This document shows positions 6,626-20,661 of a DNA stretch of 64,000 bases, one piece after another. The stretch covers positions 1 to 64,000 of the forward strand of contig JACRLR010000016.1 in assembly GCA_016219645.1 (NCBI GenBank), given 5' to 3'. This DNA comes from Nitrospirota bacterium (GTDB lineage: Bacteria > Nitrospirota > Nitrospiria > Nitrospirales > Nitrospiraceae). Made by a program: the position numbers and the translations under genes. How positions within the stretch are numbered: position 1 is the stretch's first letter; the number at the start of each line of letters is the position of its first letter. The notes under the pieces were generated by a model that did not search any database, had not been told where the DNA came from, and saw only the letters and a list, made by a program, of their open reading frames with translations.

Positions 6626-7531
6626 CTACGTTTCCTGCTGTCCTGTTCCTTGGAAGTTTCTGGGAAAACCCAGACAGACATCACCGGCGATGGATCGGTC
6701 GCCGCTTGCTCCGCTTTGACGGGCCACAATAGGGTATCGTAGACGTTCCATTGTCAGTGTGGCCATACTGGCCAGCCTGGCCCCAAGCGCAGGGTCCATA
6801 GTCTGAACCTGATTCGTGAAAAGCGCGATGGCGTGGCGCCGCAGCCGTTCGTCGATCTCGCGCGCGAGATCTCTGAGGCCGGTTCGAATGGACGTTTCGA
6901 TCGCGTCCCTTGAAACGAGGAGTCCGACCAGCCACGAAGGACCGGGCAGTTCCAAGAGAAAGTCCTCAACAGAGTGGCGCAGCATCGTCTTCAGATCGCT
7001 GGACTGATCGGGCTTGAGCACGAGCCGGCCTGATGCCTTCCCGCCCTTTCCGATGCAGGTGAGGGCGATACCGTTCGGGGTAATCGTTCCGGAGATCCGT
7101 TCGAGGTCGGCGACCTGTTTTTTCGTCTGTTCCAATAGACCGGCGAGATCGGCTTGAGAAAACCCGGATTTGTCTGAAATCACAGCGCGGGCCACGTAGA
7201 TCTCTTGTGCATGTTGGTCTAATGCGCCGGGTCGAACGCAGGCGGATCGATACCAACAACTCTCCTGAAGTTTTTCAGAGCCCCCCGCAACCACGAATAC
7301 CGGAGCATCGGGGACTTGTGATAGGTCCAGCTCGAAACGCCCTGTGTCATCCGTTCGACAGGGGGGCGGCAACGGAGATCCGGAATGAGCTCCATCGCCT
7401 CGGCAGAGTCTGACCCAGCCATTCTTGATCAGGCGGACGCAGTCCGGATGCGGCCGGCGCGACTTCAGCACGTAACGCTGAACGAACGACTCAAAATTTG
7501 TGATCTCATAGAGGGTGCCGTGCAGGGTCAT
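6626..7531 (-). CDS. Protein of unknown function
   Basis: About 301 residues from ATG 7531, preceded at ten bases by AGGAAG; a GTG six bases further upstream is an alternative start. I do not recognise the family. There is no signal peptide or membrane segment. Visible parts are an N-terminal stretch rich in Cys, Arg and Pro (residues 20-60), a region with LDLSQVPDAPVFVVAGGSEK, a helical segment with AGLLEQTKKQVADLERISG, and a C-terminal helical region with paired basic and acidic residues (RDLAREIDERLRRHAIALF). It stands alone on the minus strand between a TA pair and the divergent TolC-like gene. Length and codon use support a real gene. Confidence 0.6.
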   Translation of the reverse strand: MTLHGTLYEITNFESFVQRYVLKSRRPHPDCVRLIKNGWVRLCRGDGAHSGSPLPPPCRTDDTGRFELDLSQVPDAPVFVVAGGSEKLQESCWYRSACVRPGALDQHAQEIYVARAVISDKSGFSQADLAGLLEQTKKQVADLERISGTITPNGIALTCIGKGGKASGRLVLKPDQSSDLKTMLRHSVEDFLLELPGPSWLVGLLVSRDAIETSIRTGLRDLAREIDERLRRHAIALFTNQVQTMDPALGARLASMATLTMERLRYPIVARQSGASGDRSIAGDVCLGFPRNFQGTGQQET

Positions 7532-7689
7532 ACGCACATTACTTCCTGATCGTATCGCCGAAGTTCAGCGATGTGAGTGAAGACCATGAGGTGAGTCGGT
7601 GGTGTTAAGGGTGAGGCGCAGACCCGGCGGCTCGTCCTCGGATGCTGATCGGTCCGAGACCTCTCACGTTCAAACAATCCTGGCCGCTT

Positions 7690-7858
7690 GTACCATGCAT
7701 CTCCTTCAGCTGACAAGACCTATTTCCTGTCCTTACACTATGTGCTAACTTTACATCCCTTTTCACTTCGTGTGTGGTCTGTCTGGTTTGTTTGGTTTGT
7801 CTGGTTAGTTTCGTTCAACCCAACAAACCAAATAAACCAAATAAACCAAACAGACCAG
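7690..7858. repeat. Leader element with GGTTTG/CAAACC inverted repeat, copy A
   Basis: The 7538-7875 gap holds two joined parts. 7690-7770 closely resembles 21427-21503 (TCAGC-GA-AAGAC, TTTCCTG, TGTGCTA, TTCACTTC in the same order). It is followed at 7774-7858 by a run of GGT-CTGT-CTGGTTTG units and then the complementary AAACCAAATAAACC units, able to form a long imperfect hairpin. It ends 17 bases before the start of the TolC-like gene, so it would lie in its leader or promoter. Confidence 0.75.
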
Positions 7859-7875
7859 GATCAAGGAGGGATCAT

Positions 7876-9297
7876 ATGAACATTCAGTTCAGGCATGGGC
7901 GTAAGGAGACCAGACGCTGCATCCTCCCGTGGGCGATGGCCCCCGCGCTCATGATCGCCATTGCATGGCCAGGGTTGATCATAGATGCTCCGGCGCTGGC
8001 GGCGAACCAGATAGAAACGGAATCCTGGATCGATAATATTCTTGGGAGGTCTGGGTTCAAGCGCGGTCAGGCGCCGGAACCGACGATGAAGCCGGCGCCG
8101 CGTCCTTCCTTCCCGAAGGTCTTGCGGCTCACGCTGGATGACGCGATGGCGCTATTCCTGAAGCAAAACCTCGATCTCATCATCGCAAGTTACGGAATCG
8201 ATGCCGCGAAGGGCCGGCAGATCACCGCGCGGCTATATCCGAATCCAACTCTATCGGTCAGTACTCTTAGCGCCTATACGCAGGGGTGCAACTTTGACAA
8301 GTGCGGTGCGGTGGCTCCGTCGCTGACCCAACTGTTCGAGGTTGCGGGGAGACGGGGATACCGGATGGAGGCTGCCGCATTGGATACCATGTCCATCGAA
8401 GCGAAGTTTGAAGACGCGGTGCGGCAGTTGGGGTTCACGCTCAAGGAGACGTATTTCCGGGTGCAACGGCAGCGAGGGCACCTTGCGGTGGACCAAGAGG
8501 TCCAAAGCGTTCTTATCAAGTTACTGCACGGCTTCATCGGCGAGGGGAAAAAGGCCGGTCAGGATCTCGATCGCGTCCGGCTGGGCCTGCTGGCCGTGAA
8601 TGCCGACTCCGAGGTGCTCCGAGATATGCAGAGGATCGAAGAGGCATCGGGAGATTTGCGGATGATGTTGCAAATTCCGCCGGACGTGGAACTGGAACTC
8701 GACACGAATCTTGCGTATCGTCCGGCGGAACCGAACTTTGCAAAGTTGCTGGAGTATGCTCTGGCGAATCGGCCGGACATCCGGTCTAAAAGGCTGACCC
8801 GTGACAAGCGAAAGACTGAGTTACAGCTTGCCAAGGCGATCCGGATTCCCAACGTGACAACCAATCTCGGCTATTCGGTGCAGGGACCGCAGGGCCCCGA
8901 TAACCAGCAACAGTGGGCCTTGGGTCTTTCCGTGCCGTTGCCCGTCTTTAACCGGAATCAGGGTGGGATCGTCGAGGCTGAAGTCGCAGTCAGTTCGATT
9001 GACGCGGAGATCGAGAAGACGGAGATCCAGATTCAGAACGAGGTCGCTGTCGCCTACCGGAAGTTCTTGCATGGGCGGAAACTTGTTGAGGCCACGAACG
9101 GAGCCATGGCGCAGGCGTCAACCCTGTTGGGCGCGGCGCAGCAGGCGTTCGTCAAGAAAGAGATCGGAATTGTGGATCTAGAGAATACATACCGCTCCTA
9201 TGCCGACACGGAGGAAAACCATCTGGAAGCGATATTCGGTTATCAGCAGAATTGGCTGCGGCTCGAGTGGGCGGCCGGACGTGATATCACGTTCTAG
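7876..9297 (+). CDS. TolC-family outer-membrane efflux protein
   Basis: 473 residues from ATG 7876, chosen for AAGGAGGGATCAT just upstream; the open frame runs further up into the repeat, but that is not coding. A basic N-terminus with a hydrophobic segment (MAPALMIAIAWPGLIIDAPALAAN) is the export signal. The body shows the two-fold outer-membrane-factor pattern: LTLDDAMALFLKQNLDLIIASY, then ITARLYPNPTLSV; in the second half FAKLLEYALANRPDIRSKRL, AIRIPNVTTNLGYS and PLPVFNRNQGGI. It should be the outer-membrane tunnel of an efflux system of the CzcC/CusC kind. No RND pump or adaptor gene lies beside it, so its partner must be elsewhere. Confidence 0.88.
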   Translation: MNIQFRHGRKETRRCILPWAMAPALMIAIAWPGLIIDAPALAANQIETESWIDNILGRSGFKRGQAPEPTMKPAPRPSFPKVLRLTLDDAMALFLKQNLDLIIASYGIDAAKGRQITARLYPNPTLSVSTLSAYTQGCNFDKCGAVAPSLTQLFEVAGRRGYRMEAAALDTMSIEAKFEDAVRQLGFTLKETYFRVQRQRGHLAVDQEVQSVLIKLLHGFIGEGKKAGQDLDRVRLGLLAVNADSEVLRDMQRIEEASGDLRMMLQIPPDVELELDTNLAYRPAEPNFAKLLEYALANRPDIRSKRLTRDKRKTELQLAKAIRIPNVTTNLGYSVQGPQGPDNQQQWALGLSVPLPVFNRNQGGIVEAEVAVSSIDAEIEKTEIQIQNEVAVAYRKFLHGRKLVEATNGAMAQASTLLGAAQQAFVKKEIGIVDLENTYRSYADTEENHLEAIFGYQQNWLRLEWAAGRDITF

Positions 9298-9340
9298 CAG
9301 GATGTTGGAATAGTCCGCCTGCACCAGAAGAGCGTTATGG

Positions 9341-9448
9341 TGTTTATTTGGTTTGTTTCGTTTGTTTGCTCAGACAAGACCAACCAGGTGAACCAAATCA
9401 ACCAGATAAACAAAACAAACCAGAGCAACCAAATGAACCGTACAGACC
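9341..9448. repeat. GGTTTG/CAAACC inverted repeat, copy B
   Basis: TTTATTTGGTTTGTTTCG with neighbouring units is followed by AACCAAATCAACCAG-type units and ends near CGTACAGACC. It fills most of the space between the TolC-like gene and the Ca2+/H+ antiporter, whose start codon follows about 47 bases later. Confidence 0.8.
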
Positions 9449-9494
9449 ATGCTTGTCCAAGATGCGCCGTACGCTGCGAGAAAGGAAAGCCGAC

Positions 9495-10553
9495 ATGGGC
9501 TTGAATCTGTTGTTGGTGTTTATCCCGATCGCCGTGGGGCTCGACTGGTATGGCGCCAACCCTGTCATGGTGTTTGCCGCTGCGGCGCTCGCGATCATCC
9601 CGCTGGCCGGCTTAATGGGGCGCGCCACGGAACATCTCTCGACCTATGTCGGGGCCACCATCGGCGGCCTGCTGAGCGCGTCCCTCGGAAATGCCCCGGA
9701 GCTGATCATCTCAGGCTTTGCGCTGAAAGAGGGGCTTGTCGATGTCGTCAAGGCGTCGATCACCGGTTCGATTCTCGGCAATACGCTCTTCTCCCTCGGC
9801 CTGTCGATGATCATCGGCGGGTGGGGCAGGGAACGTCAGCGGTTCAATCCCACCGTCGCGGGCATGAGCGGAGGACTCTTGTTCGTGGCGGCGGTCGCAC
9901 TGCTGATCCCGGCCATGTTTCATTTCGCGAGCGGCAAAGAGCGCGAAGTGAGCATGGAAATCGCGGTCGTGCTCTTTGTCGTCTATATATTGAGTCTGGT
10001 GTTTACGCTCAAGACCCATCGGCAGCTTCTTCAGCCCGAGCCTGCTGCGTCCGGCGTGGCGGAGTCGCACGAAGCCTCGCACGAAGCTTCATGGAGCAAA
10101 GGGAAGTCCATCGGCGTGCTGGCCGGTGTGACTATCGTGATCGCCGTCGTGAGTGAAATCCTCGTCGGGGCGATCGAGCCTGCGTCTGCCTCGATCGGAA
10201 TGACGCCGATTTTCACGGGCATCATTTTTCTCGCGCTGGTCGGCAATGCCGCAGAGACCATGAATGCCGTGGGGTTCGCCCGCAAGGACCAGATGGATTT
10301 ATCGTTCGGCATCGCGGTCGGGGCCAGCACGCAGGTGGCATTGTTCGTGGCCCCCGTGCTCGTGTTTGCGGGCTATCTGATGGGGAAACCCATGGATCTT
10401 CACTTCACCGCCTTTGAGATCGTGGCGATCGTCCTCGCCGTCGCCATCGTCAGCCGCCAGACGTCTGACGGAGAGTCTCACTGGATGGGGGGAGTGATGC
10501 TGATGGCCGTCTATCTGATGCTCGCGATCGGGTTTTTCTTTCTACCGGCATGA
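9495..10553 (+). CDS. Ca2+/H+ antiporter, CAX family
   Basis: 352 residues from ATG 9495, with GAAAGGAAAG upstream; the longer open frame starts in repeat DNA. It is an integral inner-membrane protein of about ten to eleven hydrophobic segments. It has the two inverted cation-binding repeats of the CaCA superfamily: GNAPELIISGFALKEG followed by VKASITGSILGNTLFSLG, and GNAAETMNAVGFARKD followed by LSFGIAVGASTQVALFVAP. The acidic residues in GNAPE and GNAAE are the expected ion ligands. A short cytosolic linker (HRQLLQPEPAASG and onward) joins the halves. The role is calcium extrusion driven by the proton gradient. Confidence 0.92.
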   Translation: MGLNLLLVFIPIAVGLDWYGANPVMVFAAAALAIIPLAGLMGRATEHLSTYVGATIGGLLSASLGNAPELIISGFALKEGLVDVVKASITGSILGNTLFSLGLSMIIGGWGRERQRFNPTVAGMSGGLLFVAAVALLIPAMFHFASGKEREVSMEIAVVLFVVYILSLVFTLKTHRQLLQPEPAASGVAESHEASHEASWSKGKSIGVLAGVTIVIAVVSEILVGAIEPASASIGMTPIFTGIIFLALVGNAAETMNAVGFARKDQMDLSFGIAVGASTQVALFVAPVLVFAGYLMGKPMDLHFTAFEIVAIVLAVAIVSRQTSDGESHWMGGVMLMAVYLMLAIGFFFLPA

Positions 10554-10594
10554 GGGGGCGACTCGACAGTCCAGATAGCTCACAGTCCGGTCGG

Positions 10595-10906
10595 CTAGAG
10601 CATAATCGCAAGGAGGATTGCGCCCACGACCAGCAACTTGATGAACGCATTCTCTTTTTCCAGTGACTGGACGCGGTTCATGAGATCGGCAGGAGAAGGG
10701 GGTTGTGCAACTTGCGCGGCGGGCGCTGGTACGGTGCTGCTCTTAACTTTGGGCCGGCTCTGCGGTGCGGGTGTCCGGGCGCTGTCAGCGGAGGGACCAG
10801 CGGATCGAGCTAGGGCTGCGGACGGTGACTTGTTCCACCGGTCCTGTTTGGGATCAGGTGGAAGCGTGTCCAGCGGATTGACGCCGATTGTCTTGCGCTT
10901 AGCCAT
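10595..10906 (-). CDS. Small protein with C-terminal membrane anchor, next to ParA
   Basis: About 103 residues from ATG 10906; a GTG four codons upstream is also possible. It begins MAKRKTIGVNPLDTLPPD, a start I associate with small proteins encoded beside ParA. A Pro/Ala/Ser-rich linker follows, then a short coiled coil (LMNRVQSLEKENAFIKLL) and a terminal hydrophobic helix (LLVVGAILLAIML). It lies 52 bases after the parA stop on the same strand and probably shares its operon, perhaps as a membrane tether or a ParA partner. The function is inferred from position only. Confidence 0.65.
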   Translation of the reverse strand: MAKRKTIGVNPLDTLPPDPKQDRWNKSPSAALARSAGPSADSARTPAPQSRPKVKSSTVPAPAAQVAQPPSPADLMNRVQSLEKENAFIKLLVVGAILLAIML

Positions 10907-10957
10907 CAGCCCTTTCACTTGGTGTGACAGGATTCGAGATTTTTGCGCACGGGAAAA

Positions 10958-11728
10958 TTATGCCATGGGTCCGTTCTCTTGTCGGATCACGTCGCTCGAC
11001 AGCTTCCGGTAGTCCACCGCTCCGGCACAGAACGGATCATAGCGATCGATGGATTGGCAGAACGAGGGACACTCGGCCAGACGAACGTTTTCCCGAATCA
11101 TCGTGTCGTATACGAGCGGACCGAAACGGCTTCGGAGTTGCTCGACCACTTCCAGCCCGTGGCGGGTTCTCGCATCGACGCGGCAGGCGAGAATGCCGGC
11201 TATTTTAATATCGGGATTGAGTCGCTCCTTGACGACCTCGACAGCTTGGAGCAGCCGCGCAAGTCCACCGAGACCCATGACATGGCACTCCACGGGAACG
11301 AGCACCTCCTTGGCCGCGACCAACACGTTGGTCACCAGGATACCGAGTGTGGGAGGACAGTCGATGAGGATATAGTGCCACGGTCCCTTCAGCGCGGCGA
11401 GTCGCTGACGGAGAATCGATTCCGCTTCGACTGTACTCGCGAGAGCCTTCTCAGCTCCGACCAGCCACGCAGAAGATGGAATCACCTCGACCCCTTCGGC
11501 CGATGACGGTTGAACCAGCCCGGAGAGTGCCAGTCCGCCGGTGAAGACGTCCAGCAGGCCTCGCCCACCGTCTTTCACGCCGAGCCAACTCGACGCGGAC
11601 GCTTGCGGATCGAGATCCAGCACGAGCACCCGCCGACCCTGCCTGCCCAATGCCGCCGCCAAGTTGACAGTGGTGGTGGTCTTGGCGCTTCCGCCTTTTT
11701 GATTGATGATGGCGATCAGGCGCATCAT
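10958..11728 (-). CDS. parA: ParA/Soj-family partition ATPase
   Basis: About 256 residues from ATG 11728 (MMRLIAIINQKGGSAKTTTTVNLA). It has the deviant Walker A KGGSAKTTT with its signature lysine, the A' motif (VLVLDLDPQASASSWLG), and the B motif (YILIDCPPTLGILVTNVLVAA). The length fits the small chromosomal ParA/Soj type without an N-terminal helix-turn-helix. Such ATPases position DNA, protein arrays or organelles along the nucleoid. No parB is adjacent; only the small anchored protein follows. A start further upstream (ATG 11767, preceded by few usable signals) is possible but would add a non-conserved tail. Confidence 0.88.
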   Translation of the reverse strand: MMRLIAIINQKGGSAKTTTTVNLAAALGRQGRRVLVLDLDPQASASSWLGVKDGGRGLLDVFTGGLALSGLVQPSSAEGVEVIPSSAWLVGAEKALASTVEAESILRQRLAALKGPWHYILIDCPPTLGILVTNVLVAAKEVLVPVECHVMGLGGLARLLQAVEVVKERLNPDIKIAGILACRVDARTRHGLEVVEQLRSRFGPLVYDTMIRENVRLAECPSFCQSIDRYDPFCAGAVDYRKLSSDVIRQENGPMA

Positions 11729-11860
11729 GATCGGTAGGTTCCGCAAACCCTCGCACCTTTCCTTCATGGCGCGAGGCGGCATTCTATCTGACTTTCCTGC
11801 CACTGGCAACGCGCGCTCTTGGCATGAATCGATAGGAGTTCGTTGAGCTTTTCGAAGAAG

Positions 11861-11890
11861 TTGACTTCGGGGAAATAGTTCCTCTAGACT
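11861..11890 (+). promoter_or_regulatory. Candidate sigma-70 promoter
   Basis: TTGACT and TAGACT are separated by 18 bases, 65 bases before the start of the next gene at 11956. It is the only good hexamer pair I saw ahead of the DUF5132/P-type ATPase cluster. Read by eye only. Confidence 0.35.
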
Positions 11891-11955
11891 GAGTACGGTT
11901 GAACGCGTAGCAGACTCTTCAGCAGAAGGATGAGCGAACAGAAAAGGAGGGAGTT

Positions 11956-12225
11956 ATGGAAGTTATTATCGGCAGCGTAGCCGGTTTGGTAGTCGGTGCA
12001 GTCGCGACGAAGGTGCTCACGGGTGTTGCGTCAAGCGTAGGAACCGTGGTGTGGGCTGCGGCAAAAGAAGTGGTCAAGGGCGGGCTGGTTGTCCAGGAAG
12101 CTGTGACCGATATGTGCTCCGGAGGGGGTAGCTACTTCAGCGATTTAGTTGCCGAAGCCAAAGCTGAACTGGCTGCGCCTCAGACTGGAGCAACCGTGCC
12201 GGCTAAGGCGCATGCGGCTCATTAA
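11956..12225 (+). CDS. Small DUF5132-like membrane-associated protein
   Basis: 89 residues with a strong ribosome-binding site (AAAAGGAGGGAGTT). An N-terminal hydrophobic Gly/Val/Ala helix (residues 5-35, IGSVAGLVVGAVATKVLTGVASSVGTVVWAA) is followed by AKEVVKGGLVVQEAV and an amphipathic tail SYFSDLVAEAKAELA. The core KE-x-x-KGG-(I/L)-V plus -F-x-DL-(V/L)-AEAK-E- is shared with the two proteins that follow. I associate this pattern with DUF5132 proteins found beside HMA-domain P-type ATPases. It may be a small regulatory or structural partner of the pump at 13550; this is inference from position. Confidence 0.7.
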   Translation: MEVIIGSVAGLVVGAVATKVLTGVASSVGTVVWAAAKEVVKGGLVVQEAVTDMCSGGGSYFSDLVAEAKAELAAPQTGATVPAKAHAAH

Positions 12226-12616
12226 AGTCTGAAGCAAGTCCGTCAGGGACTGTTCTCACATTTCTTTCGGGGCAAACCTTCTCATGGTTATTCAGGTAGC
12301 CTGAGGATCGATCGTGGATATTCCCTTCGAGCAGTGCTATGTGACTTGTCGACCGCGACCGCGAACCCATACTACATCCTCCCCCCCCCCCCCGTATACG
12401 CACGACACTCCCTCAACCAAAGTTAGAGTGCGCTCCCGCACATCCAGCGGGAGGCTGTTCGTTTCAACTTAAGATCTTATCAGATCATCTGTACCCCCCC
12501 CCCTTAAGATGGGTGTCATCTCAACCATGCCTGTATTGAAACTTATCTAAGGAACTTATAGAGTCAACCCCCTATCCCGTTTTTCAAGCACGTCGGTATC
12601 TAATAGGAGGTCAGCC
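12226..12616. other. Non-coding gap with two poly-C tracts
   Basis: Contains thirteen consecutive C at 12381-12393 and ten at 12494-12503, flanked by AT-rich sequence. I see no gene. The second tract lies about 115 bases before the next start codon, close enough for slippage to change promoter or leader spacing. Confidence 0.7.
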
Positions 12617-12832
12617 ATGGAGCGCATCGTATCAGGGATCGGATCTATTCTTCGTCCCATTGCCAAAGAACTGATCAAGGGGGGAATCGTTCTGGCTGAC
12701 AACGTCGCTGAACTCGCCTCTGAGACGGGCGAGAAGTTTAAGGATCTCCTCGCCGAGGCAAAGTCCGAGATGGAAACATCGAAGACCCAGGCACAGGCGA
12801 CGAATCAGACTGATGGAAAAGACGGTCATTAA
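12617..12832 (+). CDS. Small DUF5132-like protein, duplicate 1
   Basis: 71 residues from ATG 12617, with AGGAGG eight bases upstream. The sequence ERIVSGIGSILRPIAKELIK, GGIVLADNVAELASETGEKF, KDLLAEAKSE is an amphipathic or hydrophobic helix pair followed by a charged tail. It is almost identical, in protein and DNA, to the C-terminal half of the protein at 12995-13384, so one arose from the other by tandem duplication. It shares the KE-x-x-KGG-IV core with the gene at 11956. Confidence 0.78.
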   Translation: MERIVSGIGSILRPIAKELIKGGIVLADNVAELASETGEKFKDLLAEAKSEMETSKTQAQATNQTDGKDGH

Positions 12833-12994
12833 AGACAGCACGTTTGGACTGCCTGTAGTTGCGTGAAGTAGGTACGGGGTGATCAGTTCGTCCGGGCGTG
12901 CGCGCCGGCGCCGGTATTGATTGAGCCGCGCGGTGGGGCTCGAAACTTGATTCAGGAAGGCGAGTGCCGACCTTGTTTCCTGAGGAGGCGTTTC

Positions 12995-13384
12995 ATGGCC
13001 AGGGAAAAGAAAAAGACCGGAGATCAGGGCAGGCCCAGGGTGATTGTGAAGCGAGACGAATCAGGTGCTGAGGCTGTCCAGAAGAAACCTGATCATCCCC
13101 CTACTCTCCATCAGGACACCGGCAGCCTTGCTGAAGACGTTGACGCGACGAAGGCGACTTCCACGTCAGCGGAACGCATCGTATCAGGGATTGCGGCCGC
13201 TTTCCGTCCTATTGCCAAAGAACTGATCAAGGGGGGAATCGTTCTGGCTGACAACGTCGCTGAACTTGCCTCTGAGACGGGTGAGAAGTTTAAGGATCTT
13301 CTCGCCGAGGCAAAGTCCGAGTTGGAGACGTCGAAGTCTCAGGCACAGGAGACGGAGAAGACTGATGGCAAGGACGGCAGTTAA
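12995..13384 (+). CDS. DUF5132-like protein with basic N-terminal extension, duplicate 2
   Basis: 129 residues from ATG 12995 (TGAGGAGGCGTTTC upstream). Residues 1-60 are a lysine- and arginine-rich, low-complexity extension (MAREKKKTGDQGRPRVIVK and onward) absent from duplicate 1. From about residue 61 it copies duplicate 1 (ERIVSGIAAAFRPIAKELIK and onward) with few changes. The basic arm could bind nucleic acid or anionic lipid; nothing in the sequence decides this. It lies about 165 bases before the P-type ATPase and is likely part of the same unit. Confidence 0.78.
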   Translation: MAREKKKTGDQGRPRVIVKRDESGAEAVQKKPDHPPTLHQDTGSLAEDVDATKATSTSAERIVSGIAAAFRPIAKELIKGGIVLADNVAELASETGEKFKDLLAEAKSELETSKSQAQETEKTDGKDGS

Positions 13385-13549
13385 GGACTGAGTGGATGGA
13401 CTGTTTGCAGTCGAGAGCAGGCATCATCGGGGCGATTGAGAATTGTCCACTCGCAAGCAGCCGACATTGGTCGATTAGCAACGTGGTATTCACATGTGGA
13501 GTTGAGGGAGGCAGTGGCCGACTGCGGCCCGGAAGGGGTATTCCTCATC

Positions 13550-15979
13550 ATGGAATCGATTCACACTGGAACGCGAGTCGAGAAGGTTCGAAAAAGACGG
13601 AGTACATTACACCAGGAAGATGGCCAGGGGAACCGCGATGCCTTCTCTCTGCTCACGAATGGAAGTGAGCGAGATGCGCTCTCGACTCTGATACCTCATC
13701 ACATACCACCGCGCCAGAAAAATGGGGATCACCCTTCTGCCCCGGCAACGACCGTTGAACCAGTCACAACGCCTGCGAAGCTGACTGATACGCTGGCTGA
13801 TACCAGCGTGGTCCATGCCATTCGCGGGCGCGTTCGATTGCGCGTACCGGCGCTTAAAACCTTCCCCGGCTTGGCCGACCCGCTGCAGCGGCTTCTCAGG
13901 GACCAGCCCGGAGTGATCGACGTCACGGTGAACGATTGGTGTCACAGTGTGACGGTCGTCTGCGATCCCTCCACATGGACATCCGACAGGCTCTGCCTGT
14001 GGGTGCAATTACTCAATCCGGCAGAGGTCATATCGTACAAATCAGCGAATGAACCGGCAGCTCAGGCACAGGCCTCGACTGACGAGGCGGGCAATGAACT
14101 CTGGTATTCGAGCGCCGGCATCTGTCTGGTGTTCCTCGTCCAGCCGCTGGCGGCCCCGCTGGTGCCGCTGTTGCTTCTGGCCAGTGCTCTGCCGATGCTC
14201 AAGCGGGCCCATCGCTCGTTGTCCGAAGACGGCAAACTGAACGTCGATGTGCTGGATGCCTCCGCCACTTCGTTGCTCGTCGTGCAAGGCGCCTTCCCGA
14301 TGGCGATCTTCATGGTCTGGCTCATCAACGTGGCGGACGTGATTCGAGACCTCACCATGCTGCGGTCGAAGAAGGCGATTGAGGAAATCCTCGGTTTCCA
14401 GAACATCGAGGCCTGGGTCGTGCGGGACGGACAAAAAATACGTGTCAGCGTGGCAGAGGTTCAACCCGGCGAGACAGTGGTGGTCTATCCGGGTGAGCGT
14501 ATTGCCGTTGACGGGACCGTGCTCAGCGGCAAGGCCCTGGTGGACCAGGCTGCGCTCACCGGCGAATCGCTTCCGGTCGAGAAGGAAGAGGGTGCCCTCG
14601 TATACGCCGCCACGGTGGTTCGGGAAGGCAAACTCTATATCTGCGCCGAGCGGATCGGAAGCGCAACCGAGGCGGCTCAGATTCTGCGGCTCGTGGAAGC
14701 GGCGCCTGCTCGTGAGACCAAAATCCAGAATTACGCCGTCAAGTGGGCGAACGATCTCGTACCCTACAGCTTCGTGGGAAGCGCCATCGGAGCGGTGATG
14801 GGCGGCGGTCTCCCGGGCGCGGCTGCTGTCCTCGTCGTCGACTACGGAACCGGAATCAGGATTGCGGCCCCCACGACCGTGTTATCTGCCATGACGAAGG
14901 CGATCCGGAACGGAATTCTGATCAAAGGAGGGCGGGCTCTGGAAAACCTCGCGGAAGTGGATGCCGTGGTCTTCGACAAGACCGGCACCTTGACCACGGG
15001 GCATCCCGACGTCCTGGAAGTAGTGCCGGTCAATTCCAGCACAGTCGATGAAGTGCTGGCGCTGGCCGCTGCAGCGGAACGGCGGTTGACGCATCCTGTG
15101 GCGAACGCCATCGTCCGGGCAGCAGAGGCCAGACAGGTGACGATTCCGGAGCGGACGACATCGGATTACAGCCTGGGTCTCGGCGTCGAAGCGATCGTGG
15201 ACAATTCGGTGGTTCTTGTGGGAAGTCCCAGGTTCATGACCCTTCGGGGGCTGACCCTGTCACCGGTAGTGCAGGACTACATCTCGAGATTCCAGCAACA
15301 GGCGATCTCTCCGCTCTGCGTGGCGCAGGATGGCTCAGTCATCGGATTACTGGCTATCTCCGACCCGGTGCGGCCCGAGGCACGGGATGTCGTCCAGGCG
15401 CTGAGGGATCGGGGAATCAAACATATTGTGATGCTCACCGGCGATCACACCGATGTCGCCAGGAGAATCGCCGCGGAGCTCGGAATCACCGAGTACCTGG
15501 CCGAAGTGTTTCCGGGAGACAAGTCTGAGGCAGTCCAACGCCTGCAACGGGAGGGCTTCAAAGTCGCGGTCGTCGGAGACGGGGTCAACGACTCGCCGAT
15601 GCTGGCCTATGCCGATGTCGGTATTGCTGTCGAGGGAGGCACGGAGGCAGCGCGGGAAACGGCGCCGGTGGTACTCTTGCACGGGGGGCTCTGGAAGGTT
15701 CCCCTCGCGATCGACATCGGCCGCGAAACGGTCGCGTTGATCAAGCAGAATTGGAACATCATTGCGATTCCCAACACGATCGCAGCCGCGCTGGCCTGCA
15801 TCGCCTTGCTCGGACCGATCGGGGCCACGCTGCTCAGTAACGGGTCGGCGATTGTCGCGACACTCAACGGCCTGCGTCCGATCATGGAGCAGCAGCCGAT
15901 CAAGGTGGTCTCTCCGGCGCGTGAAGGCGCAAAACTCTTGCCTGCGCCTGCTGCCGAGAAGCTAGTCCTCGCGGGATGA
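13550..15979 (+). CDS. P1B-like P-type ATPase with HMA_2 domain and no CPC metal motif
   Basis: About 809 residues from ATG 13550; the start is uncertain because the frame is open to 13436. Residues 86-160 form an HMA_2-like domain (VHAIRGRVRLRVPAL and onward) lacking a CxxC metal site. The catalytic parts are complete: a TGES loop near 335, phosphorylated D476 in DKTGTLT, a Thr-Gly-Asp motif (LTGD), and GDGVNDSP near 676. The sixth membrane helix, where metal pumps carry CPC or SPC, reads VLVVDYGTGIRIAAPTTV, so both cysteines are replaced. The substrate is therefore not the usual Cu or Zn, or binding differs. Neighbours are DUF5132-like proteins and a second HMA_2 protein. Confidence 0.85.
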   Translation: MESIHTGTRVEKVRKRRSTLHQEDGQGNRDAFSLLTNGSERDALSTLIPHHIPPRQKNGDHPSAPATTVEPVTTPAKLTDTLADTSVVHAIRGRVRLRVPALKTFPGLADPLQRLLRDQPGVIDVTVNDWCHSVTVVCDPSTWTSDRLCLWVQLLNPAEVISYKSANEPAAQAQASTDEAGNELWYSSAGICLVFLVQPLAAPLVPLLLLASALPMLKRAHRSLSEDGKLNVDVLDASATSLLVVQGAFPMAIFMVWLINVADVIRDLTMLRSKKAIEEILGFQNIEAWVVRDGQKIRVSVAEVQPGETVVVYPGERIAVDGTVLSGKALVDQAALTGESLPVEKEEGALVYAATVVREGKLYICAERIGSATEAAQILRLVEAAPARETKIQNYAVKWANDLVPYSFVGSAIGAVMGGGLPGAAAVLVVDYGTGIRIAAPTTVLSAMTKAIRNGILIKGGRALENLAEVDAVVFDKTGTLTTGHPDVLEVVPVNSSTVDEVLALAAAAERRLTHPVANAIVRAAEARQVTIPERTTSDYSLGLGVEAIVDNSVVLVGSPRFMTLRGLTLSPVVQDYISRFQQQAISPLCVAQDGSVIGLLAISDPVRPEARDVVQALRDRGIKHIVMLTGDHTDVARRIAAELGITEYLAEVFPGDKSEAVQRLQREGFKVAVVGDGVNDSPMLAYADVGIAVEGGTEAARETAPVVLLHGGLWKVPLAIDIGRETVALIKQNWNIIAIPNTIAAALACIALLGPIGATLLSNGSAIVATLNGLRPIMEQQPIKVVSPAREGAKLLPAPAAEKLVLAG

Positions 15980-15992
15980 TGAGGTTGTACGA

Positions 15993-16670
15993 ATGGCTCG
16001 GGACGATATGAGCGCATCCGATGCGCTGCTTGAAGGAGTCAACAACCCTTTGATTACACCTGCGCGTGTTTCAGGAGAGGATCGGCTCGCGCCAGTCAAA
16101 CGCGACGGACCATTGGTGGCTACCGATGTCATCCATTCGATTCCCGGGCGCGTCCGGTTGCGTGTGCCGGCGCTCAAAGCCGATTCGAACCTGGTTCGCG
16201 GACTACAAGGATTGCTGTCGGCGCAAGCTGGTGTGACTGAAGTCACTGTTGCGTCAGTCTGCCAGAGTGTGACGGTCGTGCACGATCCGGCGCGGTGGAC
16301 CCCGGAGTCGCTGTGCATATTTCTACAAAGCCGCAATTGCGAAGAACTCGATCAGTACGCATCAGCCGTCTTGCCGGACGAGGCAACCAGTTCGTTTGCG
16401 AAGACCTGGCTGCAACCGTGGCGATACCTGAATACGGCCGAAGATAGCCCTGATTCCGGGGGTGTGCCTCAGACAGCCGGGCCAGCCAAGTCCGGCTATT
16501 GGAAGGTGGGATATGCCAGCATGGTTGTGGGAGTTGCTTTGTTTGCTGTGCCGGGAGTTCCGGGCGTACCGTTCCTGATCCTGTCCACGTACTGCTTTTC
16601 CAAGGCCACCATCTTCAAAGCAGGCGATGAGCCTGAAGCCGGAGAGCGAGTTCCCAAAGCAGGGCAGTAG
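15993..16670 (+). CDS. HMA_2-domain protein with DUF454-like membrane tail
   Basis: 225 residues starting 13 bases after the P-type ATPase, so co-transcribed. Residues 40-110 (VIHSIPGRVRLRVPALKADS and onward, ending VTVVHDPARW) closely match the HMA_2 region of the pump upstream. The C-terminal part, SGYWKVGYASMVVGVALFAV, PGVPGVPFLILSTYCFSKAT, is a double membrane segment like the DUF454 (YbaN) family, with its PGVPGVPFL turn. The shared N-terminal domain suggests that both proteins recognise the same partner or ligand. No CxxC is present. Confidence 0.78.
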   Translation: MARDDMSASDALLEGVNNPLITPARVSGEDRLAPVKRDGPLVATDVIHSIPGRVRLRVPALKADSNLVRGLQGLLSAQAGVTEVTVASVCQSVTVVHDPARWTPESLCIFLQSRNCEELDQYASAVLPDEATSSFAKTWLQPWRYLNTAEDSPDSGGVPQTAGPAKSGYWKVGYASMVVGVALFAVPGVPGVPFLILSTYCFSKATIFKAGDEPEAGERVPKAGQ

Positions 16671-16723
16671 GTTTTCTCCTCTAAAGAAGACAGCTAGATA
16701 AATGGTGGTTAGACTATGACATG

Positions 16724-16767
16724 AAAGGGCCACTCACGTTCACTTTGTGAGCATGAGTGGCCCTTTT
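16724..16767 (+). terminator. Rho-independent terminator after the P-type ATPase operon
   Basis: Thirteen paired bases (AAAGGGCCACTCA with TGAGTGGCCCTTT) around a 17-base loop, ending in TTTT, 54 bases after the stop of the HMA_2/DUF454 gene. Its symmetry also allows it to serve the opposite strand. Confidence 0.85.
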
Positions 16768-16820
16768 GTGCAGTTTCTGTGCGGTTTGCAGACGCGCGGC
16801 CCATATGACCGTCGCCGGTC

Positions 16821-16904
16821 TTACAGGATGGCAACCGTCAGCAGAAATGCTGTGACCTCTAGCCCAAACCCAATGATGGATAGTATAAATCCTATAGTCT
16901 TCAT
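16821..16904 (-). CDS. 27-residue membrane peptide
   Basis: Reading ATG 16904 to TAA 16821 gives MKTIGFILSIIGF followed by GLEVTAFLLTVAIL. It is a single hydrophobic helix with one Lys at the start and one Glu in the middle. The ribosome-binding site, AAGGAGGAGCAAAC, is among the best in the window, which argues against a chance frame. It lies between the terminator of the P-type ATPase operon and the gene at 17314, facing the terminator. Small one-helix proteins often regulate membrane pumps, but no such role can be shown here. Confidence 0.6.
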   Translation of the reverse strand: MKTIGFILSIIGFGLEVTAFLLTVAIL

Positions 16905-17242
16905 GTTTGCTCCTCCTTGTGGGGTTCATGGCCTGATTTGAATCAAGCCCGTCTGTCATGGTTAGCATCGAGCAGCTTCTGTGCCAGGTTGTGTATTTAT
17001 GCAAAGAGGCTCCATAAGTACATGACTTCTCAGTAAGAACTGATGGTGAAGCGGAAGCAGATGTGCGTGAGAGAAGCATTTCGTCATCAAGCCGAGTGCC
17101 TGATCTACCATGCTGGGAGATGCTGTTCATGAACGAACCCTATGGCACCAACGTTCGACCACCTCTCGCAGGTTCGCTGCTCTCTCCTCGGCGACAGTGG
17201 CTGGCGTTGCCGAGATACCTCCATTGGAACATCTATACAAGC

Positions 17243-17258
17243 TACCTCCGTTGAGGTA
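17243..17258. promoter_or_regulatory. Short palindrome, possible operator
   Basis: TACCTC and GAGGTA are separated by CGTT, 55 bases before ATG 17314. A related TACCTCC(A)TTGG half lies about 27 bases upstream at 17216. It could be a repressor site for the gene at 17314. Weak evidence. Confidence 0.25.
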
Positions 17259-17313
17259 ATATTTGCGCGTTATTTTATTCAGTATGCAGGCCATGAAGGT
17301 GGAGGAGAGGGCT

Positions 17314-17679
17314 ATGGAAGAAAGCACAGCCGGTACGATGAACACAGAATCGGCGACTTCGACTGATTCTGTTGCTGCGGGCGGCAAGGGCGCATACCAG
17401 GTCCTAGAGGAAGGCTGGGAAGCGATAGGTACTGGAGTCCGGCATGTGTTTCACGCCCTCCCGGGCCACGGGACGATTCCTGGTTTTGCTTTAGGTGTTG
17501 GCGCGGCGATGGCGTTCGGCGTCGGGGAGTTGGTAGCGGGCTGCTTCACGGCTTATGTCAGCTATAGATATTTCGCGTATGGAGAATCGCTGAGCGAGGC
17601 GATTGAAAAGGCGATCAAGTTCGAGGCAGGCAAGCTTGAGGAGAAAGAGATCAACAAGCCTATTCCGAAGGACGTGTAA
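17314..17679 (+). CDS. Small membrane protein of unknown function
   Basis: 121 residues from ATG 17314, chosen for GGAGGAGAGGGCT upstream. A Ser/Thr-rich polar start is followed by AYQVLEEGWEAIGTGVRHVF, then a Gly/Ala-rich hydrophobic span (IPGFALGVGAAMAFGVGELV, AGCFTAYVSYRYFA), then a charged tail (SLSEAIEKAIKFEAGKLEEK). The architecture of a glycine-rich membrane helix plus an amphipathic acidic and basic tail resembles the small proteins at 11956-13384, so it may belong to the same functional group. I do not recognise a named family. Confidence 0.65.
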   Translation: MEESTAGTMNTESATSTDSVAAGGKGAYQVLEEGWEAIGTGVRHVFHALPGHGTIPGFALGVGAAMAFGVGELVAGCFTAYVSYRYFAYGESLSEAIEKAIKFEAGKLEEKEINKPIPKDV

Positions 17680-17712
17680 CGTTTCGCGCAGACATCAAGG
17701 GCCGCATCACGA

Positions 17713-18438
17713 TCACTTCACGTCGGATAAGCTCAGCTGTTTCCCGCCCATCACTACATAGGCTGTTCCCGGCCACACGAAGTGTCGGCCTTCCGGGACG
17801 TGGATCTGAATCCCAGTGAACACTCCATAATTGCTTCGCGTGGGATCGACCGTCAGGTGAATCATCCGCTCGACTTCTTCGAGGATGACCCCATGAACGA
17901 TCCTGGTCAAAGAGAGTAAATCCGGGACATCGCCATACCGGAGCTTGCCCAACAGATGTCGCTTGAGAACGCTCTGCTCTATGTCATCAGGATCGGGCAC
18001 CAAATGGAGAGACCGGCTTTCGAGTTCATGTTGAAACGCTATCAATGCCCCACAGGCATGGGAGGCTTGCTGACGACCTGGACGGAAATAAACGCCGAAT
18101 TCCCCCTCAGGCCCGATTGCAATATGGGGCAGGGCGTAATACACATATCGCTCTAGGCCGCTTTCATCGACAGGGGCATGATGCTGGGCGGCCAAGAACC
18201 CGGTCTTGCCCAAAATGGGTAGTCCAGCGAGACCGGAAAACAAGAACGCTTCTCCCCAGGTTCTCTCAATATCTTCTACCAGGGGCCAGGTGATTTCGTC
18301 GCGGCAGACACATGCGAATGCGATCGTATTCTCCGGCCGAAACCCTTGTCTCAATAGTGCCTCATAGGATTGGGCGACGAACCGGTCCTGTGGAATCGCC
18401 TCAGGAAACTCACTGGCCATGCGTGTCTCCCAATTCAT
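17713..18438 (-). CDS. LCIB-type carbonic anhydrase (theta class)
   Basis: 241 residues from ATG 18438; ATG 18420, with GGGAG seven bases before it, is an alternative. The order of motifs matches what I know of the limiting-CO2-inducible B/C carbonic anhydrase domain: GFRPENTIAFACVCRDEITW, LVEDIERTWGEAF, LGKTGFLAAQHHAP, YYALPHIAIGPEGEFGVYFR, ACGALIAFQHELE. Candidate zinc ligands are C43 or C45, H105 and C129, with the C-x-R-D-E cluster completing the beta-CA-like site. It would interconvert CO2 and bicarbonate in the cytoplasm; no signal peptide is seen. It stands alone, convergent with the gene at 17314. Activity is inferred from conserved residues. Confidence 0.78.
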   Translation of the reverse strand: MNWETRMASEFPEAIPQDRFVAQSYEALLRQGFRPENTIAFACVCRDEITWPLVEDIERTWGEAFLFSGLAGLPILGKTGFLAAQHHAPVDESGLERYVYYALPHIAIGPEGEFGVYFRPGRQQASHACGALIAFQHELESRSLHLVPDPDDIEQSVLKRHLLGKLRYGDVPDLLSLTRIVHGVILEEVERMIHLTVDPTRSNYGVFTGIQIHVPEGRHFVWPGTAYVVMGGKQLSLSDVK

Positions 18439-18634
18439 TGCGTCTGCCTGCCTATCGCACTCAGTTCCCTTGGGCCCTATTCAAAGGGCATTCTAGGATT
18501 CCGGCCGGTGGAGGTGTGAAACCTATCGCGGGGCCCAGGTACTGTCAATGAAAGAATACTCGGGCCCAATTGCTCCTCGGTCATGAACAGAGCGCGATTG
18601 GAGCCAGATGTCCGGTTCGTGTGGGCGACGGGGT

Positions 18635-20176
18635 TCAGAAAAAGAGCCGCAACGACAAGAATACATAGTCCGTATTTTTGTCGTTGGGAGCGCCTGCGAT
18701 GCCTTGCTTCAAGAGATTGGAGTAATAGCTCCCTTTCATCAAATACAGCCATCCTCCTTCAACCACCATATTGGGGCTGACCGTCCAGGCCAGGCGCAGG
18801 TCGAGTTCTGACCCGACATACTTGCCGGCTTGTCCGGTCTGGTCCTGCAAACCGGTTCCGACAAATTCGTCTCTAGCCTGGGCCAGCCACCAGAACCGTT
18901 GTTTGAAAATGACATGGAGGTCCTTCAGCGGCTCTACGGAAGCGACATAGCCGGGGGAGCTGATATTGGCTCGTTTGAATAGCGACCAAATCCCTGTATA
19001 CGTGAAGGGGAAGTTTTGTGTGCCGAAGAGCGGATTGAAGCGCCCATTCTGATTGTCGTGAGGATCATTGTCGCCGCTGGCGTAGTCGTATTTGAAACGG
19101 ATCGACGGTGTCCAGGGGAGCGCGAACGTATATCCGATCTCCGCATGCTGAAAGTACGCGAATGTGGTCAATAGAGGGCTGCCGGGCTTGAGTGCCGATC
19201 GGCCGAACTGGTAGGAGGATTCGATTTCGTAGTCAAAGGTGGCCTTGGCTTCCGGCTTGAAGAGCCGGAAGCCTGGGGTATAGAGGTCCGCCAGTTGGCC
19301 TTGGGTGCTCTGGTCCTGATTGATGCCGGTGGTGCCCCGTACCTGCTCGTTCTGCGATATGTAATAGACGTACAGTTCGGTATGGAGCCAGGGCATGCGC
19401 TGGTCCAGATAGGACATGCCGCTAAACAGAGTATTCGAGGGGACGGTGTCCGGCGACGTCTGATGATTCTGGACTGGGCGCATGACAAATGCGCGGACTT
19501 CCCAATCTTTGCGTGGTCCCAACGTCCAGTGAGCGCCCACAAACGAAAAGGGGACGTTGCTGTAGTTGCTCCTGGCGATGAGCCGGCTCTTTCCAAAGGC
19601 TTGAGTAAACTTACCGATCTGCAGCTCGGCCGGCAGGCCCGATTCGAGAAAATTGTCTGTCCCCACGCTGCCGTAGAGCTGGAGCACATCGTTCTGATTC
19701 TCCATCCGGCTGCTGACCGTGAGGCCGTAGTTGTAGAGCGGGCGGGCGTCGAGGAATTCCAGATGAAACTTGAACGGCTTGTAGCGGGCCTCAAGGTTCA
19801 CGTCCGTACGTTCAGAGAACTGCGCGCCTCCGGTCGTTTCGTTCTTCTTGACCGGCTGGCTGTAGGCTTCGTAGCGTGTACGAAAGTCGAGACCCAGGTG
19901 TAGCCATTCAGGGACATGGAGCATCTGATCAAGATGGAGCGGAGACTGCGGGACGTTGAGTCGGAGATCGTCCGAGAAGATAATCTCCTGAAATCGACGC
20001 GCGAGCGGTCCGAGACGCCGCTCGGATGGACGATCAGTTCGTTGTTCCTCCGGTGACGACACGGCTGCCTGCGTTTCACCTGCCCAGGCTGGTTGCGCAC
20101 CGAGATGAACGGCAATAAGTAACAGGGCACCCAGCGCAGCGGCGTTCAATTCCACGCGTGTCGTCAAGACTGTCAT
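18635..20176 (-). CDS. Alginate-export-family outer-membrane beta-barrel protein
   Basis: About 513 residues from ATG 20176; the frame stays open to 20236. A signal peptide (ALGALLLIAVHLGAQPAWA) is followed by a polar linker and a long barrel with alternating aromatic strands, ending in LSLRLFF with a terminal Phe, as barrel proteins do. The central pattern (LQIGKFTQAFGKSRLIARSN, PFSFVGAHWTLGPRKDWEV, TFAYFQHAEIGYTFALPW, RFKYDYASGDNDPHDNQNGR, FNPLFGT) is that of alginate_exp porins (AlgE-like). In many bacteria this family is encoded without alginate genes, and none are here, so the transported substrate is unknown. Confidence 0.82.
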   Translation of the reverse strand: MTVLTTRVELNAAALGALLLIAVHLGAQPAWAGETQAAVSSPEEQRTDRPSERRLGPLARRFQEIIFSDDLRLNVPQSPLHLDQMLHVPEWLHLGLDFRTRYEAYSQPVKKNETTGGAQFSERTDVNLEARYKPFKFHLEFLDARPLYNYGLTVSSRMENQNDVLQLYGSVGTDNFLESGLPAELQIGKFTQAFGKSRLIARSNYSNVPFSFVGAHWTLGPRKDWEVRAFVMRPVQNHQTSPDTVPSNTLFSGMSYLDQRMPWLHTELYVYYISQNEQVRGTTGINQDQSTQGQLADLYTPGFRLFKPEAKATFDYEIESSYQFGRSALKPGSPLLTTFAYFQHAEIGYTFALPWTPSIRFKYDYASGDNDPHDNQNGRFNPLFGTQNFPFTYTGIWSLFKRANISSPGYVASVEPLKDLHVIFKQRFWWLAQARDEFVGTGLQDQTGQAGKYVGSELDLRLAWTVSPNMVVEGGWLYLMKGSYYSNLLKQGIAGAPNDKNTDYVFLSLRLFF

Positions 20177-20661
20177 ACGTTTAAGGAGTGGCCAGAGCGG
20201 AGCGGGGAGACTAGCAGACCGGTTGCTACTGAGCAATGCCTGGCGCAGCGAACCTGTTCAGAAAAAGCGGACATCCGGCGCGTTGTGTTTGCTCTGACTG
20301 TCGACGTTGATCGAGCGAGTATCACTACCCGGTCCGGTCGGGTGAGGGGGAGACGCATTGGGAATGTTGAATGGTAAATGTTGAATGTTGAATTGTCGGG
20401 ACTGGCGCGACGGACGACGGATCAAGGGCCGAAGTTCGAGGTTTCCGGAACCGCGCATCCCGCATCCCGTATCCCGAACTTCGAGTCGCGCCCATCTCGC
20501 TCGTCCCGCCCCTCTCGCTTGAGTCAGGCATCGGCGATTGCAGCAGAAGCGCTCGTGAATAATGCGGGCTAGGCTAAGGAGCAGGTGGGGCCTGTCACCG
20601 CGTTCTCCTTCTCGCGCGATTTCAATTTGCGTACGTATATCCAATCCAGTATATTAAAGTC
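20177..20661. other. Non-coding gap with repeat fragments
   Basis: No gene is visible. 20305-20360 resembles 21660-21710 (GAGCGAGT-TCACT and CGGGTGAGG-GGAGAC). 20365-20395 holds AATGTTGAAT units in tandem. 20456-20480 holds CGCATCCCG units. 20532-20573 is one end of the CCCGCATTATTC element. The gap appears to be a graveyard of mobile-repeat ends ahead of a TA pair. Confidence 0.55.
20532..20573 (+). repeat. Half copy of the CCCGCATTATTC-end element
   Basis: GATTGCAGCAGAAGCGCTCG followed by TGAATAATGCGGGCTA matches the right end of the element at 42636-42833 and, inverted, the left end at 56110-56155. No opposite end is found upstream. Confidence 0.65.

Follow-up and report, generated by a model that had tools for sequence, protein, structure and literature searches.

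The P-type ATPase described here belongs to a separate clade, sister to the P1B-6 ATPases, in which the residues of the P1B-6 metal site are replaced throughout. The cluster that encodes it is real and conserved; it is probably not a copy of the ferrosome cluster, nor is it an isolated system, and it adjoins the P1B-6 and PacL systems with new partners.

A conserved gene block around the pump

The window is the whole stretch of DNA that was analysed (positions 1-64,000, on a 507-kb contig of a 3.65-Mb genome), and its named nearest relatives are mostly Nitrospira-type records. Positions 11956-17679 encode three DUF5132 proteins, a P-type ATPase, an HMA_2/DUF454 protein, and a glycine-rich membrane protein. 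The conserved unit is wider than the original prediction had it (approximately 7.8-20.2 kb). Upstream of 11956 it takes in a TolC-type protein, a CAX Ca2+/H+ exchanger, a 107-aa protein, and a ParA; downstream of 17679 an LCIB carbonic anhydrase and an Alginate_exp porin are encoded on the opposite strand. The block is not due to chance, since the same block was found again in several other genera; a TolC-type neighbourhood like that of the window is present at loci L033-L036, L038, L049, and L051. The features are as follows.

7774-9297, + strand: TolC-type outer membrane efflux protein (PF02321 OEP, 7e-39), flank of the conserved block
9348-10553, + strand: CAX Ca2+/H+ exchanger (TIGR00378 equivalog, 360.3 bits, cut-off 211)
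10595-10918, - strand: putative ParA-adaptor-like protein (107 aa), N-terminus conserved across aligned relatives
10958-11809, - strand: ParA-type ATPase, Walker A KGGSAKT (PF13614, 1.8e-48), conserved in sister loci
11956-12225, + strand: DUF5132 protein 1, PacL-like (Pfam 1.4e-4; hydropathy 2.14)
12617-12832, + strand: DUF5132 protein 2, no TM helix (Pfam 2.8e-7)
12917-13384, + strand: DUF5132 protein 3, near-duplicate of protein 2 with an N-terminal extension (Pfam 3.2e-6)
13436-15979, + strand: P-type ATPase of the GTG clade, sister to P1B-6 (domains, TIGR01525, tree, model)
13805-13987, + strand: N-terminal HMA_2 domain of the pump, HxxxGRxRLR, no CxxC (Pfam 6.5e-5)
14840-14860, + strand: TM4 motif DYGTGIR, YGT at the CPC position (alignments, model)
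15836-15850, + strand: TM6 motif SNGSA (HN in P1B-6)
15993-16670, + strand: stand-alone HMA_2 protein with a C-terminal two-helix DUF454-like hairpin (sub-threshold Pfam matches, alignment, AlphaFold model)
17263-17679, + strand: glycine-rich protein with a single membrane segment, probable start 17314, conserved in sister loci
17713-18438, - strand: LCIB-type carbonic anhydrase, ligands C/H/C plus D conserved (PF18599, 1.1e-50; alignment)
18635-20236, - strand: Alginate_exp-type outer membrane porin (PF13372, 3.3e-49), conserved in 5 loci

Two arrays of 9-bp units (TTTGTTTGG-like, then the complement) at 7768-7858 and 9333-9440 form long hairpins ahead of the TolC and CAX genes. In the called CAX ORF many of the ~50 initial codons come from the array ahead of it, and the CAX domain starts at about 9510. 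A search of 7000-20500 against Rfam gave zero matches to an RNA element, and the number of sites in a promoter and terminator scan was not above that of shuffled sequence. The window has no clear gene between 16670 and 17263, the place that a TMEM175 K+ channel occupies in sister loci.

Within the family the cluster has a patchy distribution, as would be expected from transfer or repeated loss. DUF5132 was absent from the 31 other genomes of the window's genus, and the genus mates in the phylum sample had neither LCIB nor, at E 1e-150, a clade pump. Among 345 genomes of the phylum of locus L064 no further clade member was found at E 1e-140.

The ion site and its relation to P1B-6 ATPases

The pump ORF encodes E1-E2_ATPase and HAD domains and scores 503.7 bits against TIGR01525 (cut-off 346). 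Its start is probably ATG 13550, as judged from the alignment. Actuator, DKTGT P-domain, N-domain, and P1B fold are all present and, as the original prediction held, all the catalytic motifs are kept. The AlphaFold model (pLDDT 82.6) matches CopA 7r0g with Z 34.7 and rmsd 3.8 over 601 residues, and a Cd2+ ATPase with Z 36.5. The predicted replacement of CPC by DYGTGIR was borne out: the motif occupies residues 469-475, Y470-G471-T472 align with the C-P-C of CopA in an alignment that includes the genome's own CopA, and in the model the TM4 helix is broken just ahead of D469-Y470-G471-T472-G473. The HMA_2 domain of the pump (residues 124-184, below the Pfam cut-off) likewise has HxxxGRxRLR in place of CxxC, and H127, R132, and R134 are invariant in 14 sequences.

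A profile scan of genome contigs gave 80 loci, which were pooled with other loci. The pumps split into two non-overlapping sets, 43 with D[YF]G[TS]G[IV]R and 51 with D[YF]SC[AT]. When 40 clade members were aligned with 51 P1B-6 relatives, G471, T472, G473, and S801 were invariant in the GTG clade (40/40), while the P1B-6 set had invariant S471, C472, and H801 (51/51) and A473 in 50 of 51. In TM6, where HN is a P1B-6 feature (PMC9374683), all 40 clade members have SN (S801-N802) and all 51 relatives HN; in TM4, D[YF]GTG (DYGTG in the window pump) takes the place of the D[YF]SCA consensus of the relatives fetched. A tree built with the motif columns removed shows the GTG clade as monophyletic (SH-aLRT 99; 89 for the SCA side), so that the pump lies in a separate sister clade rather than inside P1B-6. 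The two share the P1B architecture, VDxLDA, the TM4 D, and the conserved N and RP end of TM6. With SCA and HN replaced by GTG and SN throughout, the conserved Cys and His are gone from the clade. Among the conserved polar residues of model helices M4-M6 are D469, T472, N772, N780, S801, N802, S804, and N811; most of these conserved residues are D, T, S, or N, and none is Cys or His. From this ligand set we infer a hard cation as the likely substrate.

The closest neighbour of the window pump in the tree comes from a 5.6-kb contig labelled Pyrinomonadaceae (Acidobacteriota; L045), which is probably a Nitrospira contig that was binned wrongly. Bradyrhizobium-family genomes of 5.0-5.3 Mb have pumps of the SCA type, together with HMA_2 and small proteins.

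Partner genes of the pump

Partners were counted at loci with at least 2 kb of flank on each side, and all these locus counts are linked by shared ancestry and not independent. Every clade pump (30/30) and every P1B-6 pump (33/33) has a small PacL-like protein nearby, and an HMA_2-type protein accompanies 29/30 and 25/33, respectively. Pump homologues scattered without these neighbours had been named as a finding that would speak against the original prediction; instead, the neighbours co-occur with the clade pumps. The accompanying claim of an undescribed system stands as far as the conserved set goes, but the set is tied to known systems by its P1B-6 sister group, the same partners, and DUF6110 homology.

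The small helix proteins that had been predicted correspond to three ORFs (11956, 12617, and 12917) with KE-x-x-KGG-[IL]V, two above the DUF5132 cut-off and one just below. Copy 1 has an N-terminal TM helix with a glycine motif, a KEVVKGGLV turn, and DLVAEAKAE; the helix is missing from copies 2 and 3, which are near-identical duplicates of each other. DUF5132, which is named in no paper of the literature searched, is homologous to the DUF6110/PacL-like proteins (hhalign probability 96.7, E 3.5e-10). DUF6110 proteins adjoin several SCA-set pumps and have been reported together with P1B-6 pumps (PMC9374683), and PacL proteins assemble P1B pumps into multi-metal patches (PMC9374683, PMC13043812). 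Copy 1 can be classed as PacL-like by its glycine-motif TM helix, AE-rich cytoplasmic part, DUF6110 homology, and P1B pump neighbour, features shared with the mycobacterial PacL/CtpC effluxosomes (DUF1490; PMC9374683, PMC13043812). Unlike in these effluxosomes, the clade pump has no CPC, several paralogous small proteins are present, the other neighbours differ, and no DUF5132 protein has a conserved His/Asp cluster or a DLHDHDH-like C-terminal metal motif.

The second HMA_2 protein with a DUF454 tail, also part of the original prediction, is a real ORF. Both of its Pfam matches are sub-threshold, and its AlphaFold model has an HMA fold like that of MerP and the ATP7A/B domains (1yjr, rmsd 1.3 over 62 columns); the Foldseek E-values are weak because half of the model is disordered or membrane helix. 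H48, G52, R53, and R55 are invariant, giving the same CxxC-free HxxxGRxR pattern as in the pump. Calcyanin contains HMA-like basic domains (CoBaHMA, an HMA fold with conserved basic residues in place of CxxC), which the basic HMA domains of the clade may resemble. The DUF454 tail suggested FezC, and hence a ferrosome, at first sight. This identification was rejected: FezC is a DUF4405-type cytochrome of the fez cluster (PMC10979944), and DUF4405 was not found beside the clade pumps tested. The DUF4405 matches in the genomes of L052, L055, L059, and L064 lie elsewhere and that of L060 has none, with the limit that FezC may score below the DUF4405 threshold. The predicted one-helix peptide is the glycine-rich ORF, conserved in the 14 sequences aligned. 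A shell or encapsulin-like assembly, which had also been suggested, was rejected since no part has a Pfam match pointing there; a membrane patch or vesicle is the better analogy.

Other partners set the clade apart from P1B-6, among them CAX, LCIB, ParA, and TMEM175. CAX is within 3.5 kb of 17/30 clade pumps versus 0/33 P1B-6 pumps, and LCIB within 9 kb of 13/26 versus 0/21. Two subclades, separate from each other in the tree, show the CAX link: Nitrospirales (10/10 loci with enough flank) and Magnetominusculus-type Nitrospirota plus one Desulfobacteraceae MAG. In the Magnetominusculus-type subclade CAX accompanies the pump at 13/13 loci including duplicates, mostly 28-130 bp away on the same strand, and LCIB is near only two distinct loci. 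The 13 of 30 clade members with no nearby CAX are from Burkholderiales, Bradyrhizobium, Chloroflexi, Isosphaeraceae, and an N. moscoviensis subclade; the usual order in the CAX-free lineages is small protein, HMA protein, pump, on one strand. In L037, L038, L049, and L051 about 13 bp separate CAX from LCIB, with both genes on the same strand, and no CAX-LCIB neighbourhood away from such a pump was found in 296 Nitrospirota genomes among places above the family cut-offs. In the window both genes are outside the pump operon, and a second CAX, which genus mates also have, is elsewhere on the contig. Distant LCIB-like proteins near two Bradyrhizobium pumps (L060 13032-14156, L062 14249-15364) keep the C/H/C ligands; this linkage is tentative because it is based on a sub-threshold Pfam match (0.0069 in L062, none in L060) and the conserved ligands. 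Bradyrhizobium-family loci with a GTG-type pump also have adjoining EcsC and/or DUF445 membrane proteins (L060 12196-13023, L165 9705-12120, L062 12866-14236).

In several sister loci the HMA gene is followed by one for a TMEM175 K+ channel, and L064 has a CLC channel gene ahead of the pump; such channels could serve to balance charge. The ParA and the 107-aa protein recur together in relatives. The 107-aa protein has an N-terminal MAKRKTIGVNPLD (conserved start M[AMST]KR[KRS]TI[GR]xNPLD), a variable linker, and a C-terminal coil and TM helix. Some short basic N-termini act on ParA, and ParA can position organelles; the gene position and the shape of the protein suggest that it is a ParA adaptor and that the cluster provides the ParA cargo. 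In the Magnetominusculus-type and Desulfobacteraceae clusters, pairs of PilT/PilU-family ATPases follow the HMA genes (L059 13843-16078, L171 12620-14863, L064 12824-15010).

Possible substrate and compartment

The best explanation, to which we give an even chance, is a scaffolded pump that exports a hard cation, most likely Ca2+, from the cytoplasm into the periplasm or a vesicle. The PacL-like DUF5132 proteins would gather pumps into a membrane patch, the oxygen-donor ligands of the ion site would bind the cation, and ATP would drive it out of the cytoplasm. The basic HMA_2 domains of the pump and of the stand-alone protein may be regulatory or lipid/anion-binding adaptors rather than soft-metal chaperones. 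In this lineage the Ca2+/H+ exchanger would also move Ca2+ out at the expense of the proton gradient, LCIB would supply or buffer CO2/HCO3-, and ParA with its membrane-anchored partner would place the patch or vesicle in the cell. The original prediction of a membrane complex moving an ion or lipid that it left unspecified thus keeps its first part as the best reading. The ion is narrowed toward Ca2+ because of the CAX and carbonic anhydrase neighbours; the lipid has no support, and a lipid flippase was rejected since the pump fold and HMMs are P1B. The main weakness of the calcium assignment is the 13/30 members that lack CAX, because of which CAX may be a lineage partner uninformative on the pump substrate. 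CAX proteins may also carry Mn2+ or Cd2+. As for the far side of the membrane, TolC and the porin speak for the periplasm, and the relation to ferrosome pumps and the ParA pair for a vesicle.

Ordinary Ca2+ homeostasis at the cell membrane, with efflux when the water is hard or alkaline and with no compartment or carbonate chemistry, is a sub-case that overlaps the hard-cation reading and is possible, if tentative. CAX and a P-type pump would be enough for efflux, and outer-membrane TolC and porin are in the block, but this account leaves the closely spaced LCIB and CAX of four loci and the ParA pair unexplained, and the second CAX on the contig could serve that role. A plasma-membrane PacL-like efflux platform for a transition metal (Mn2+, Zn2+, or Fe2+), with CAX and LCIB as neighbours in a cation-resistance island, would draw on the DUF6110/PacL homology of DUF5132, the PacL patch precedent, the TolC and porin flanks, and the general heavy-metal P1B models that score best for the pump. 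It is nevertheless unlikely: the P1B-6-site Cys and His are exchanged in every clade member, neither the HMA domains nor the DUF5132 proteins have the expected metal motifs, and no metal sensor was identified beside the pump.

Very unlikely is a ferrosome-like organelle in which the pump fills a small-protein vesicle with iron. The closest characterised relatives are indeed P1B-6/FezB pumps with the same small-protein and HMA partners, and ParA with a membrane-anchored partner fits the positioning of a membrane body. However, the site residues are unlike those of every P1B-6 pump in the set, no FezC-type DUF4405 gene is near the clade pumps tested, and the CAX and LCIB genes, which relate to calcium and CO2, are absent from P1B-6 loci. 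We know of no iron-storage role for CAX or LCIB. A ferrosome-like, membrane-bounded compartment that instead stores calcium or calcium carbonate in Nitrospira-type and magnetotactic Nitrospirota is decidedly unlikely too, though not to the same degree. Here the P1B-6-derived pump and CAX would load the compartment, LCIB would give carbonate, TMEM175/CLC channels would balance charge, and ParA and the membrane adaptor would position it. Magnetotactic Nitrospirota form intracellular Ca-Ba carbonates (PMC12710302), and Ca-carbonate enclosed by membranes occurs in other magnetotactic bacteria (PMC11773610). Carbonate formation in the magnetotactic Nitrospirota and in the calcyanin cyanobacteria shares with the cluster the logic of Ca transport plus carbonic anhydrase; the difference is that no calcyanin was identified here. 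By analogy with the carbonate formers, a calcium vesicle would be a candidate in the species that carry the cluster. For the Nitrospirota carbonate granules, candidate transporters (GDT1, MgtE, ZnuA2) unlike this cluster have been proposed, and no dedicated gene cluster (PMC12710302).

The GTG clade stands as a family of its own beside the ferrosome pumps, with the soft-metal site exchanged in all its members. Should the ion be Ca2+, it would be a branch of the P1B ATPases that acts on a hard cation, not on transition metals. If a compartment is involved, the cluster would be a candidate set of genes for storing calcium or carbonate inside Nitrospirota cells.
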